In this document: piece after piece, positions 2,316 to 23,339 of the stretch | Layout: every line of letters begins with the position of its first letter | Numbering within the stretch: position 1 is the stretch's first letter | Source: Kaiparowitsia implicata GSE-PSE-MK54-09C | GTDB taxonomy: Bacteria; Cyanobacteriota; Cyanobacteriia; Elainellales; Elainellaceae | Direction of reading: 5' to 3' | Length of the DNA: 48,421 nucleotides | Assembly: GCA_019359435.1 (NCBI GenBank) | Contig: JAHHHI010000002.1 | Location: 1-48,421, forward strand | Made by a program: the position numbers and the translations under genes | Notes under the pieces: model-generated | The model's database searches: none | Told to the model about the DNA's origin: nothing | Seen by the model: only the letters and a program-made list of their open reading frames with translations

Positions 2316-3161
2316 TTATCCCGAATTTTTCTGATAAAGATAGACATCGCGCTGCGGAAAGGGAATGGAGATACCCTCAGCATCTAGCTTTTTCTTGATA
2401 TTTTCATAGGCCGTGAAATAGACGGGCCAGTAGTGTTCGGTGCGCGTCCAGGGGCGCACGGCAAAGTTGACGCTGCTGTTTGCCAGCTCTAGCACGCCAA
2501 TCATGGGCGGCGGGTCTTGCAGGATGCGGTCGTCTTGTGCCAGTGCGGCCGTAATCACCTGCTTGACGCGGTCAATATCTTCGTGGTAAGCCACGCCCAC
2601 CACCAGATCAACCCGCAGAACTCCCTTAGTGGAATAGTTAACGATATTGTTAGCCGTAAGGCTGTTGTTGGGGATGATGACGGTTTTGTTGTCGAGCCGG
2701 CGCATCATGGTGGTAAAGAGCTGGATATCTTCCACAAACCCTGATTCGCCGCCGCCCTCAATCCAGTCGCCCACTCGAAACGGATGGAAGAACACAATCA
2801 GCAGCCCGGCTGCAAAGTTGGAGAGAGACCCTTGCAACGCTAGCCCTACTGCCAGACCCGCAGCACCCAAGATGGCGACGAGTGATGTGGTTTCGATGCC
2901 GAGTTGGCCCAGCGCGGCCAGAATTACGAAGGCGGTGATTCCGTATTCGGCAAAGTTGCTGGTGAAGGAGATCAGGTTGGGATTGAGGGGGGTGCGGTTC
3001 ATCAGCCGCTTGATTAGGCGGCGCAGTTGTTTGGCGATCCACCGACCGATGGCAAAGATGGCGATCGCCGCAATCAAACGCAGCCCAAACTCCAGCACCA
3101 TCGCCTGCATTTGCAGGTATAAAGCGCTCAGCGAATCCAGGTTTACAAGGTCAAAGCTCAT
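2316..3161 (-). CDS. small-conductance mechanosensitive channel (MscS family)
   Basis: A 281-residue inner-membrane protein, close to E. coli MscS (286). Hydrophobic segments lie at about residues 18-42, 68-92 and 95-125. The pore helix is Gly/Ala-rich (LGAAGLAVGLALQGSL), followed by the family hallmark NFAAGLLI and a beta domain containing GDWIE. After it come the strand VIIPNNSL and a cytoplasmic alpha/beta C-terminus. The family gates at high membrane tension to release solutes on hypo-osmotic shock. The protein belongs to the short 'core' MscS class with no extra sensory domain. It is divergent from the racemase at 3267 with 105 bp between, which must hold both promoters. Confidence 0.93.
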   Translation of the reverse strand: MSFDLVNLDSLSALYLQMQAMVLEFGLRLIAAIAIFAIGRWIAKQLRRLIKRLMNRTPLNPNLISFTSNFAEYGITAFVILAALGQLGIETTSLVAILGAAGLAVGLALQGSLSNFAAGLLIVFFHPFRVGDWIEGGGESGFVEDIQLFTTMMRRLDNKTVIIPNNSLTANNIVNYSTKGVLRVDLVVGVAYHEDIDRVKQVITAALAQDDRILQDPPPMIGVLELANSSVNFAVRPWTRTEHYWPVYFTAYENIKKKLDAEGISIPFPQRDVYLYQKNSG

Positions 3162-3266
3162 GGAGATATCATCACGTAATCAGACTCACGACTGGACGAT
3201 ACCACGCTTGGCTGCTGGCTCCAATGGCTAGGAATAAATGCACACTCAACCGATGCGACATAACCT

Positions 3267-3992
3267 ATGCGGATCACTGTGATCAACCCCAACACGACCG
3301 AGACCATGACGGCTGCCATCGGGCAGATCGCCAAGGCCCACGCTGCTCCTAGTACGGAGATCACGGCGATGAATCCGGCGCGCGGCCCAGTGTCAATCGA
3401 GAGCTTTTATGATGAGTATCTGGCAATTCCCGAAGTGCTAAAGCTGGTGCGGCAGCATGACGCTGAAAGTGATGCCATTGTCCTCGCGTGCTGGGGAGAT
3501 CCGGGGATCGATGCAGTGCGCGAGATGACAACGAAGCCAGTTGTGGGCATTGCCGAAGCGTCAATGTATGCCGCCAATGCGATCGCCCCCCGGTGGTCAG
3601 TCGTCACCACCTTGGCCCGCAGCTACCACATGGTGGAGCATGTGGTAAAAAAAACCGGGTTGGGCGATCGCTGTGCATCAATTCGCTGTGTCGATATGCC
3701 CGTCCTAGACTGTGACGAAAACCCCGACGCCGTGCTCCAAGGCCTAGAACAGGGAGGCCGCCTGGCGCTACAAGCCGACCATGCCGAAGCCATCATCCTC
3801 GGCTGTGCGGGCATGGGTGGCATGGAAGCAGCGCTATCGCAGCGACTCGGGGTTCCCTGTGTGGATCCCGTTGCTGCGGGCGTCCGGTTTGCCGAACTGC
3901 TAGTGGGGATGCAACTCACCACCAGCAAACGCCTCACCTACCGCCCCCCTGAGCCCAAACTACGCAAAGGCATGGAGGACAGCCAAGACTAG
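3267..3992 (+). CDS. Asp/Glu/hydantoin racemase family protein
   Basis: A 241-residue cytoplasmic cofactor-independent racemase. The N-terminus ITVINPNTT is typical of hydantoin and allantoin racemases. Two catalytic cysteines lie in family contexts: Cys75 in LACWGDPG and Cys180 in ILGCAGMGG. They act as the acid/base pair that inverts the alpha carbon. A hydantoin substrate is plausible because a hydantoinase-type amidohydrolase lies at 42907-44325 in the same window, but the two are far apart and not co-transcribed. Aspartate or another amino-acid derivative cannot be excluded. The stop codon TAG (3990-3992) lies within the CTAG flank of the MITE at 3989-4119, so the C-terminus may have been set by that insertion. 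Confidence 0.85.
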   Translation: MRITVINPNTTETMTAAIGQIAKAHAAPSTEITAMNPARGPVSIESFYDEYLAIPEVLKLVRQHDAESDAIVLACWGDPGIDAVREMTTKPVVGIAEASMYAANAIAPRWSVVTTLARSYHMVEHVVKKTGLGDRCASIRCVDMPVLDCDENPDAVLQGLEQGGRLALQADHAEAIILGCAGMGGMEAALSQRLGVPCVDPVAAGVRFAELLVGMQLTTSKRLTYRPPEPKLRKGMEDSQD

Positions 3993-4119
3993 GGCGTGTC
4001 ATCAATTCCGACCAAACGCCTGATGCTATGAGCGTTGCCACGCCCGACCCAAAAACGAGGCTAGGGGCTGTGACTGTTGATTTCTGGGATATCAGAGGCT
4101 AATTGATGACAGCCCCTAG
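3989..4119. mobile_element. 131-bp MITE with CTAG flanks, copy 1
   Basis: The element has imperfect terminal inverted repeats: GGGCGTGTCATCAATT at the left and the complement of GGGCTGTCATCAATT at the right. CTAG lies at both ends (3989-3992 and 4116-4119). It folds into two hairpins: GGGCGTG pairs with CACGCCC in the left half, and GCTAGGGGCTGT pairs with its complement in the right half. It encodes nothing. An inverted copy of nearly the same length lies at 23210-23339. Small size, inverted ends and an apparent target duplication fit a MITE moved by an unidentified transposase, perhaps of the IS5 group. The flanking TAGs form the stop codons of both convergent neighbours. Confidence 0.85.
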
Positions 4120-6689
4120 CGTTCTACCCCGGCCAGGTCGGTTGCTGACGCCTCTACACCCCTCTCCTGATCCACAAAGACTTGAACCAGTAAGCGATAT
4201 TCCTTCAGAGTTTCGTCAACCCAGCCCCGATCGCTGCTGTCGGCATAGAGATGCACCACGGGTTCACCAGCATCGGGCAAAATCAAAATCCAGCTATCCC
4301 GCTGGGGGCTAAAGATTTTCACCCCGTCAATCAGTTCCATCGTCTCACTCGCGTGGGTTTCAACCAGGTGTCGCATGAGCGATCCCTTCGCTGTCCAAGG
4401 ACAGCGCACGGTCAGGGTCTTGTGGCAAACCTGAGGCAGCTCAGCGCGAATTTGCCCCAAGGTGCGAATCTGCCCGCCATAGCGCTGATGATCTTGCCGA
4501 GAGAGCAGTTCGATGAGCTTGGCAATGCAAAACATGGCATCAAAGCCGGGATGCAACTGTGGAAAGATGAATCCCATTTCGCCGCTGCCCCCCAGCACCA
4601 CATTGGGATTGGTGTGACAGGCTTCCATCAGCGCAGTGGGGTTCACCTTCGTGCGAATCACTTCGCCATTGTGCCGTCGGGCAATCTGCTCGATAGCACT
4701 AGACGAGTTAACGGGCACAACCACGGTGCTACGAGGATTCTGCAATAGGCTCATGTGCACCATCAGTGCGGTTAGCAGTTCACCTCGAATGGGGCTACCG
4801 CCTTCATCTACCAAAATTAACTGCTCGCCGTTGCCCGACACCTGCACACCAAAGTTGGCCTTGAGCGCTTCGACCACGTGACCCAGCTGACTGAGCAGGG
4901 CTTCGCGGTCAGAGATGGTGGGCACGGTCTGGTTGAGGCTGGCGTTGAGCACAACAGCGTCGCAGCCAAACTTTGCCAGGAGCGTGGGGAGCACAGCGCC
5001 GGATACGGCATAGGCATAGTCCACTACTACTTTAGAGTTGCTGCTGCGGACGGAATCTACATCCAGCATCCGCTCAAAGCTGGTGCAGTAAATTTCTGTG
5101 GCTTGATCCACATACACGATGTTGCCGATTTCCTGCATTTGGGCGCGGCGAAAATCTTCTTTGAAGTAGGCGCCTTCGATTTTCTTCTCACGCGATTTGG
5201 ACAGGTTGATGCCTTTGCTATCAAAGAATTCAATCAGGATGTGATCAGATCGCTCAGGATGCACGCGCACATGGACGCCACCCGCCACATTGCGCACGGG
5301 CGCTACGGCACGCGCTAGGGGTATAGCGGTGGCCTCTAAGTTTTGCACATGCACGCCTACCGACATCAGACCCGAGATGAGCGATCGCGACACCATGCGA
5401 GAGATATTGCGCTGATCGCGAGAGACGCTCACCTGCGACCCAGGCTGAAGGGTAGACCCAAAGGCTGCACCCAGTCGCACTGCAAACTCAGGGGTGATAT
5501 CAACGTTCGCCAGCCCTGAGACACCCCGCTGCCCAAAGAGGTTGCGGTGGGCGGCATGGCCCCAAATTAGGTTCATGTTGGCGATCGCCCCCGGTTCGAT
5601 CCGCTTGCTCGGCCATATCCGTACATCGGGATTAATTAGCGCTTCTTCTCCCACAATTGACAGCGACCCCACCACAGCCCCTTCCAGCACATGAGCGCGA
5701 CGGTCAATGCGAGTGCCCCGAGCCGCAACGCAAGCCCGCAGATGGGCTTCATCCCCAATAGTGACACCGTTCCACACCACAGGGCGCTTGAGGTCGGCGT
5801 CAGCCCCAATGGTGACGTTGTCGCCAATTACTGTATCCGCATCAATCTGTGCCCGCGCTCCGATGTGGCAGTTGCTGCCAATCAGCGCTGGCGTCTCGAT
5901 CGCTGCGCTGGCGTCAATGTGGGTATTTTGCCCGATCCAAATGCCGGGCGATCGCTCCTCATAACCAATTTCTAGCCGCACCTCCCGATGCAGTGCCGCA
6001 TAGTGCGCCTCGCGATAGGCCACCAGATTGCCCACATCGCACCAGTAGCCCCGTGCCACATAGCCATACATGGGCACCCCTTTTTCCAGCAGCAGCGGAA
6101 ACAGGTCTTTGGAAAAGTCGGCTTCTTGACCTGCGGGCAGCACATCCAACAGTTCCGGCTCCAAAATATAGATGCCAGTGTTCACCGTATCGGAAAAAAT
6201 TTCACTGGTGGAAGGCTTTTCTAAAAAGCGGCGGATGCGCTGCTGCTCATCCACAATCACTACGCCAAACTCTAGCGGATTTGCAACAGGTGCTAGCACG
6301 AGCGTGGCCTTAGACCCGCGCTCGTGATGAAAGCGAATCGCCTCAGTCAAATTAATGTCAGTGATGCAGTCGCCACTGATCACCAAAAACGTCTCATTCA
6401 GCAACTCTGCTACGTTTTTAACACAGCCCGCTGTGCCCAGAGGCTGGTCTTCTTCAACGGCATAGGTCATTTGCACCCCAAAGTCGCTGCCGTCTAAGAA
6501 ATAGTCACGCATGACATCAGGTAAATAATGCAGCGTGGAGATAATTTCTGTAATGTCGTGCCGCCGCAGTAAGTTAACGATGTGCTCAGCGATAGGGCGA
6601 TTTAGAATCGGCACCATTGGTTTGGGCAGATCACAGGTGAGTGGCCGTAGCCGTGTTCCCGATCCTCCTGCCATTAGCACTGCTCTCAT
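4116..6689 (-). CDS. nucleotidyltransferase / left-handed beta-helix / phosphomannomutase-like fusion
   Basis: An 857-residue cytoplasmic protein. Residues 1-235 are a sugar-1-phosphate nucleotidyltransferase with the signature AGGSGTRLRPLT and KPMVPILN. Residues about 250-380 are hexapeptide repeats of a left-handed beta-helix. Residues about 385-850 resemble alpha-D-phosphohexomutase. The family is usually called mannose-1-phosphate guanylyltransferase and supplies GDP-mannose for polysaccharides. The mutase half looks catalytically dead: the phosphoserine loop TASHNP is absent from the expected place (residues 468-495), and the metal loop DGDxDR is replaced near 618-623 by SGNGEQ. The sugar-binding loop GGSGEMGF (700-707) survives. 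The start ATG 6689 is preceded by GGAGG. The stop lies in the CTAG flank of the MITE. Confidence 0.9.
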   Translation of the reverse strand: MRAVLMAGGSGTRLRPLTCDLPKPMVPILNRPIAEHIVNLLRRHDITEIISTLHYLPDVMRDYFLDGSDFGVQMTYAVEEDQPLGTAGCVKNVAELLNETFLVISGDCITDINLTEAIRFHHERGSKATLVLAPVANPLEFGVVIVDEQQRIRRFLEKPSTSEIFSDTVNTGIYILEPELLDVLPAGQEADFSKDLFPLLLEKGVPMYGYVARGYWCDVGNLVAYREAHYAALHREVRLEIGYEERSPGIWIGQNTHIDASAAIETPALIGSNCHIGARAQIDADTVIGDNVTIGADADLKRPVVWNGVTIGDEAHLRACVAARGTRIDRRAHVLEGAVVGSLSIVGEEALINPDVRIWPSKRIEPGAIANMNLIWGHAAHRNLFGQRGVSGLANVDITPEFAVRLGAAFGSTLQPGSQVSVSRDQRNISRMVSRSLISGLMSVGVHVQNLEATAIPLARAVAPVRNVAGGVHVRVHPERSDHILIEFFDSKGINLSKSREKKIEGAYFKEDFRRAQMQEIGNIVYVDQATEIYCTSFERMLDVDSVRSSNSKVVVDYAYAVSGAVLPTLLAKFGCDAVVLNASLNQTVPTISDREALLSQLGHVVEALKANFGVQVSGNGEQLILVDEGGSPIRGELLTALMVHMSLLQNPRSTVVVPVNSSSAIEQIARRHNGEVIRTKVNPTALMEACHTNPNVVLGGSGEMGFIFPQLHPGFDAMFCIAKLIELLSRQDHQRYGGQIRTLGQIRAELPQVCHKTLTVRCPWTAKGSLMRHLVETHASETMELIDGVKIFSPQRDSWILILPDAGEPVVHLYADSSDRGWVDETLKEYRLLVQVFVDQERGVEASATDLAGVER

Positions 6690-23209: not shown

Positions 23210-23339
23210 CTAGGGGCTGTCATCAATCAGCCGTTGATGGCTCAAAAATCAATAGTCACAGCCCCTAGCCTGTTTTTAAATCGGGCGTGGCAATGCCCAT
23301 AGCACAAGGCTTTTAGTCAGAATTGATGACACGCCCTAG
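23210..23339. mobile_element. 130-bp MITE with CTAG flanks, copy 2 (inverted)
   Basis: This is the reverse-complement relative of the element at 3989-4119. Its ends are CTAGGGGCTGTCATCAATC and ATTGATGACACGCCCTAG. The internal order of hairpins is the same when inverted, with scattered substitutions. It fills the gap between the acsF terminator and the ribosome-binding site of the gene at 23361, so that gene's promoter would have to lie in the element unless it relies on read-through. Confidence 0.85.

Follow-up and report, generated by a model that had tools for sequence, protein, structure and literature searches.

Two convergent genes meet at a short inverted-repeat element

The window analyzed here is a stretch of 48,421 nt from the cyanobacterium Kaiparowitsia implicata GSE-PSE-MK54-09C (contig JAHHHI010000002.1, positions 1-48,421). 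Near its start, a racemase-family gene and a gene for a nucleotidyltransferase fusion protein converge on a short, multicopy, non-coding MITE with terminal inverted repeats, and the stop codon of each gene lies at one border of this element. The features of the locus are as follows, in window coordinates.

3267-3992, plus strand: Asp/Glu/hydantoin racemase family gene, 241 aa (PF01177, 3.5e-55; end compared with orthologue tails)
4116-6689, minus strand: nucleotidyltransferase/phosphoglucomutase-like fusion gene, 857 aa (PF00483, PF02878, PF02879, PF02880; end compared with orthologue tails)
3990-3992, plus strand: racemase stop TAG, TA probably from the target and G from the element
4116-4118, minus strand: nucleotidyltransferase stop TAG, TA probably from the target and G (complement of C4116) from the element
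3992-4116, plus strand: MITE, the mobile unit proper, 125 bp (copy census and consensus)
3992-4007, plus strand: left terminal inverted repeat GGGCGTGTCATCAATT; the IS5-family elements L250 and L253 have the same sequence at each end
4101-4116, minus strand: right terminal inverted repeat GGGGCTGTCATCAATT, identical to the left repeat at 14 of 16 positions
3990-3991, no strand: left TA, probable target duplication (TA at 83/92 left ends tested, and outer/inner base test)
4117-4118, no strand: right TA, probable target duplication (TA at 75/80 right ends tested, and outer/inner base test)
4061-4064, no strand: internal CTAG, start of the MITE's inner right-end-like motif, kept in most related MITEs aligned

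A first-pass annotation of this DNA had proposed that a 131-bp MITE fills the gap between the two genes. Genome matches, terminal-repeat counts and the copy census all bear out a multicopy MITE in this position, and the border repeats that delimited it (3989-4007 and 4101-4119, 19 nt, 89% complementary) are real. Its limits needed correction: 16-bp terminal repeats bound a mobile unit of 125 bp, and the outer C (3989) and outer G (4119) are assigned to the target. The placement of both stop TAGs inside the border CTAG tetramers (3989-3992 and 4116-4119) was correct.

Searching the organism's own 6.72-Mb genome with a 139-bp query yielded 40 near-full-length matches at 94-100% identity, self included, these being the best 40 of 205 first-look candidates. 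At up to 2 mismatches, the left terminal repeat occurs 144+148 times (1+1 for a reversed control pattern) and the right one 136+157 times (0+0 for its control); since only 2 positions distinguish the two patterns, their counts overlap. Roughly 290 repeats set against 0-2 in the reversed controls show that the terminal repeats do not recur by chance. The places listed by these searches formed 150 clusters in 134 regions (829 kb), all of which we examined, and they hold at least 145 copies. Exactly 125 bp is the length of 91 of the 145, and the 140 copies of at most 145 bp have a median identity to the consensus of 94%, in a sample biased toward copies with intact ends; for copies lacking an exact end the 40 scored matches were the sole source, so degenerate copies are under-sampled. 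The window itself contains a second, diverged copy (23213-23336, minus strand, 85% identical to the consensus), which is intergenic and sits on no stop codon of the listed open reading frames.

The longest read-through of the MITE consensus is 37 codons. As RNA, the element folds at -43 kcal/mol (z -2.45; 2 of 200 shuffles folded equally well), which we take to be what the inverted repeats give. Neither a terminator nor a promoter was found for it, nor an Rfam family at gathering score.

Three further genera, each represented by one genome (G012, G031 and G034, the G031 copies coming from 20 regions among the places listed), have MITEs that largely keep the length, both ends and a central block surrounding the internal CTAG, and diverge in the arms. 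This comparison rests on an alignment of 17 distinct relatives' copies (right end with at most 1 mismatch) plus the consensus, and on a second alignment of 10 copies, 8 of them from relatives. Each half of the MITE is bounded by its own inverted repeat (3992-4116; L251:1392-1516; L257:1501-1626; L264:816-941). The left tip and the inner repeat covary between the own genome and the others (GTG/CAC versus GCG/CGC). L265 and L275 are among the exceptions, and the covariation amounts to about one event and is no proof of structure.

Other repeats are found in or near some copies. In L050 (element 2938-3183), a short inverted repeat of another kind, TGCAGCGTCA...TGACGCTGCA, lies in the MITE's internal CTAG with CTAG on both sides, and is perhaps a second CTAG-using family. 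A third repeat, made of long GC-rich palindromes, occurs within a MITE copy in L044 (element 2938-3192) and near an insertion sequence (IS) fragment in L216 (~1700-1860).

The MITE probably derives from an IS5-family insertion sequence

The ends of the MITE are common to transposase-bearing elements of related genomes, and it is on this basis that we assign it to an IS5-family element. L250 (840 bp) and L253 (829 bp), both from related genomes, contain transposase reading frames and carry GGGCGTGTCATCAATT at both ends, and the protein of L253 matches NF033580 (IS5 family transposase) with E=1.1e-90. Among the matches listed, 9 of the 36 family genomes, one of them the own genome, have the exact MITE ends. 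A relative, 77% identical over 829 bp, resides on a plasmid of Leptolyngbya sp. BL0902, where it is annotated as an IS5 family transposase. Beyond the ends (up to ~21 bp), comparison of the MITE with L250, L253, L255 and L330 gave only short, chance-like BLAST matches. Judged by its ends, the MITE probably derives from an IS5-family, IS427-like element, the IS427-group label of these parent-type ISs being one that we infer. The BL0902 plasmid copy (L330:601-1433) has a PAS-domain gene on one side and a GGDEF fragment on the other, both on one strand, as though it interrupted a single coding region; the PAS reading frame continues into the end of the IS, where it stops.

Several other elements were considered as the parent and rejected. 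IS630 elements prefer CTAG, and a TA target within CTAG is a feature that the MITE has in common with IS630/Tc1-mariner MITEs. At none of the 9 DDE_3 loci of the own genome, some of which are cut by contig ends, are MITE ends paired: eight show nothing end-like below 5 mismatches, and the ninth, L212, has one such site ~0.7 kb from the DDE_3 match and no partner end. The own genome's full-length IS5-family copies, L214 and L215, lack ends with fewer than 4 mismatches, and their transposase shares 28% protein identity with that of L253. The fragment L216, with GGGCGTGTCATCAAAT and an apparent transposase C-terminus, is a relic present at a single place. Two further IS5 copies, L217 and L218 (~1473-1664), run off contig ends and show GGGCGTGTAGACAATC tips after CTAG; these tips are related to those of the MITE, and neither copy qualified as the parent on that account. 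L217/L218 may represent a helper still present today that the assembly has truncated. For the matching IS, the own genome yielded fragments and no intact copy.

The duplicated target is probably TA within YTAR

The first-pass annotation had taken CTAG to be the duplicated target. Among the 145 copies, CTAG stands on both sides of 83 and TA on both sides of 124. Variants in the outer base appear one-sidedly (18 TTAG/CTAG and 8 CTAG/CTAA, with 1 TTAG/CTAA), and the two-sided forms TTAG/TTAG and CTAA/CTAA are absent from all 145; inner-base variants also occur (5 CTAG/TTAG and 4 CTAA/CTAG). When each end is judged only on copies found through the exact opposite end (83 left and 75 right ends), the base outside TA deviates 23 times against 8 for the first or last base of the element (p=0.011); a biased variant of the count gave 22 versus 4, and we use the fairer one. 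One copy, in L097, can be compared with a paralogous unoccupied site in L060 that has a single TA, and the two differ in the outer base (CTAG in one, CTAA in the other). The L253 IS is preceded by CTA and followed by TAA.

We conclude that the duplicated target is probably TA within YTAR, mostly CTAG, rather than CTAG itself, and that the terminal G and C of the element would rebuild CTAG at each border. With TA duplicated and an element G or C completing each border tetramer, each stop consists of target TA plus one element base. At the focal site, duplication of TA and of CTAG predict the identical sequence. The literature offers something to both versions. The portion of PMC9241763 available describes an IS5-group element with direct repeats of the 4 bases CTAG, which speaks for duplication of CTAG, whereas most IS5/IS427 elements listed in Table 2 of PMC3281130, likewise a partial source, measure 832-865 bp and make 2-bp duplications.

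Both genes end at about the same residue as their orthologues

Another proposal of the first-pass annotation, that the element had reset the C-termini of both proteins, does not agree with the sequence obtained by removing it: there, both TAGs lie in frame in one and the same CTAG. The lengths of the two proteins are also close to those of their orthologues. Nucleotidyltransferase orthologues span 851-861 aa (29 loci, approximate lengths) against 857 here, and racemase orthologues 231-266 aa (28 loci, approximate lengths) against 241, the closest (74%) also having 241. None of these 57 orthologue loci has an element end near the stop in a search allowing up to 3 mismatches; the sole end-like site is in L189, with 3 mismatches, ~900 nt beyond the stop.

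The geometry of the target leads to the same result. An in-frame TAR within a YTAR target is already a stop, so a border TAG is never new after a clean insertion. The in-frame stop that follows insertion is TA plus the G of the element; thus any TAA or TAG that the element hits becomes TAG again. Since the outermost element base completes each stop once more, both proteins would be left unchanged. Insertion in the other two frames would add, according to the consensus, 37 or 29 codons at the left end and 6 or 18 at the right.

Stop codons among the landing sites

To place the focal site among the others, the element and one TA were removed in the 124 copies with TA on both sides (the other 21 of the 145 were left out), and one duplicate place (tandem copies in L126) was dropped, leaving 123 unique sites. 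Genes were called with our own hexamer caller, which yielded 830 genes and 77% coding sequence. By these calls, 24 of the 123 sites fall on the stop codon of a gene (25 genes in all), 94 are intergenic and 5 lie within genes; the tally of copies abutting stops that the first-pass annotation had called for is therefore 24 of the 123 sites in the regions sampled.

Of the 25 stop-abutting genes, 19 have a Pfam match, and some of the remaining 6 may be miscalled. With the two focal genes set aside, the domain reaches to within 5 positions of the profile end in 15 of 17 matched genes (for example PF02390 173/173, PF02410 98/98, PF21893 141/141 and PF00977 226/228). C precedes the stop at a frequency of 0.379 for TAG, 0.384 for TAA and 0.314 for TGA; it is no commoner before TAG than before TAA, and there is thus no sign that past insertions made CTAG stops.

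Occupancy of CTAG, counted without unoccupied tetramers within 200 nt of a region end, was 20/144 at stop codons, 4/49 at 1-15 nt downstream of genes, 15/91 at 16-50 nt and 20/164 at 51-150 nt downstream, 14/263 near 5' ends, 17/253 far from genes and 3/1870 within genes. The first-pass annotation had offered, as its other option, that insertion favors sites where a stop already exists. This holds weakly when stops are compared with all non-coding CTAGs (odds ratio 1.73, p=0.06; 1.53-1.60 and p 0.15-0.22 with stricter gene sets) and fails when they are compared with CTAGs up to 150 nt downstream (20/144 versus 39/304, p=0.77; p 0.57-1.0 across four gene sets). Stop-specific targeting is unsupported once 3'-flanking CTAGs are the yardstick, and the similar occupancy of the two classes makes stops ordinary safe sites rather than special targets.

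Origin of the double stop

Among the 123 sites, the focal one is the only double stop, and no other of the 141 convergent gene pairs was seen to share a stop. None of 124 unoccupied CTAG stop sites is double, so double-stop targets are rare. In the part of PMC2174442 available, convergent genes are described as overlapping by 4 bp via CTAA, TTAA, CTAG and TTAG, the same tetramers as YTAR. The racemase and nucleotidyltransferase genes are adjacent neither in 29 family loci (flanks up to 1.5 kb) nor in 46 further genome-contig loci (flanks up to 4 kb), and none of these loci contains an orthologous empty site; the ancestral overlap is therefore not seen directly.

Insertion into a 4-bp convergent overlap is the simplest and most likely history of the double stop, and we consider the following account as a whole to be likely. 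The MITE would be a non-autonomous derivative of an IS5-family, IS427-like insertion sequence, inserted at a YTAR tetramer by a transposase supplied in trans, with duplication of TA. Its target here would have been a single CTAG at which the convergent racemase and nucleotidyltransferase genes overlapped by 4 bp, the tetramer providing the TAG of the racemase on one strand and that of the nucleotidyltransferase on the other. Insertion would have split this shared palindrome, the G and C of the element replacing the third base of each stop, so that both genes would keep TAG, their proteins would be unchanged, and the stops of the formerly overlapping pair would come to lie 123 bp apart. YTAR sites are where the MITE occurs across the genome, and selection presumably removed insertions within genes; YTAR stops would then be safe in the same way as other 3'-flanking CTAGs.

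The main rival to this account is homologous recombination between one MITE copy at the racemase stop and another at the nucleotidyltransferase stop, which would leave both proteins unchanged without the genes ever having shared a CTAG. The 123 sites have 246 borders, of which 25 coincide with a gene end (~10% per side), so that recombination at random would be expected to produce a double stop in ~1% of cases; the rarity of double-stop targets and the lack of racemase/nucleotidyltransferase adjacency in every relative examined also speak for it. Recombination predicts, however, that the ancestral 3' neighbor of the nucleotidyltransferase gene should be found beside a MITE on the matching side. 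A survey of the downstream neighbors at 29 nucleotidyltransferase and 31 racemase loci, which covered 829 kb plus the window with short flanks and matches of at least 45% identity, returned one match within 1 kb of a MITE, a gene from L176/L177, the two best nucleotidyltransferase matches (78-80% identical). In the own genome the MITE lies ~26 bp past the 3' end of this gene and not at its 5' end, where the break would be expected. We regard recombination as unlikely.

Two other readings appear less probable still. A transposase that actively prefers stops or gene 3' ends, for instance via termination or supercoiling between convergent genes, would accord with the occupancy of 3'-side CTAGs (stop to 150 nt, 59/448), about twice that of 5'-side and distant ones (31/516). 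Selection against promoter damage explains this difference equally well, and the parity between stops and downstream CTAGs in all four gene sets argues against a preference for stops, which we judge improbable. That the insertion truncated one or two once-longer genes at a border TAG has in its favor that CTAG contains TAG on both strands and that in-gene insertions do alter gene ends in other frames, as in the PAS gene of L330, which ends LGRVIK. It runs against the YTAR rule, under which an in-frame border TAG arises only where TAR was already a stop, against the orthologue-like tails at loci with no element end near the stop, and against the complete domains at most stop-abutting genes, and it seems to us very improbable.

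The insertion account explains how a mobile element can sit on two stops without harm to either gene. The YTAR tetramers are exactly those in which genes of both strands can terminate. The explanation needs no more than the sequences of the target and of the element's ends, and it should hold for every TA-duplicating element with G/C ends. It supplies a testable rule to tell which IS families can treat stop codons as safe harbors, and a route by which overlapping convergent genes may become separated. We speculate, with considerable doubt, that the YTAR target and an element with G as its first base and C as its last form a stop-proof insertion grammar, maybe maintained by selection, which would enable high copy number in a gene-dense genome and the splitting of overlapping convergent genes.

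Comparison with known systems

The closest relatives of the MITE are the IS5/IS427-like ISs L250, L253, L255 and L330, which have the same or nearly the same 16-bp ends and CTAG/CTAG or CTAG/CTAA flanks. Those in L250, L253 and L255 are 829-840 bp long; the MITE differs from these elements in having no transposase gene, and its own genome retains only fragments of a matching IS. Nezha, reportedly described by Zhou et al. in 2008 (cited in PMC10969869) as a MITE of cyanobacteria, is likewise a short inverted-repeat element.

RUP of pneumococcus, as far as the partial text of PMC2229807 goes, is 107 bp long, has 108 copies and TA-containing targets, and shares its ends with an IS. It thus resembles the MITE in being short and multicopy, in its TA-containing targets and in having ends common with an IS. 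RUP is thought to be mobilized by an IS630-type transposase, whereas the MITE described here has IS5-family ends. PMC2759123, in the portion available, reports the loss of a normal stop codon to a repeat. Preservation of stops by IS ends is not described in the parts covered of PMC10969869, PMC9241763, PMC3281130, PMC3119063, PMC2229807, PMC2759123 and PMC2174442, which came from literature searches that covered few subscription papers. Finally, 4-bp convergent overlaps employ the same YTAR tetramers that the MITE uses as its target; they are a property of compact gene ends and not a mobile element.
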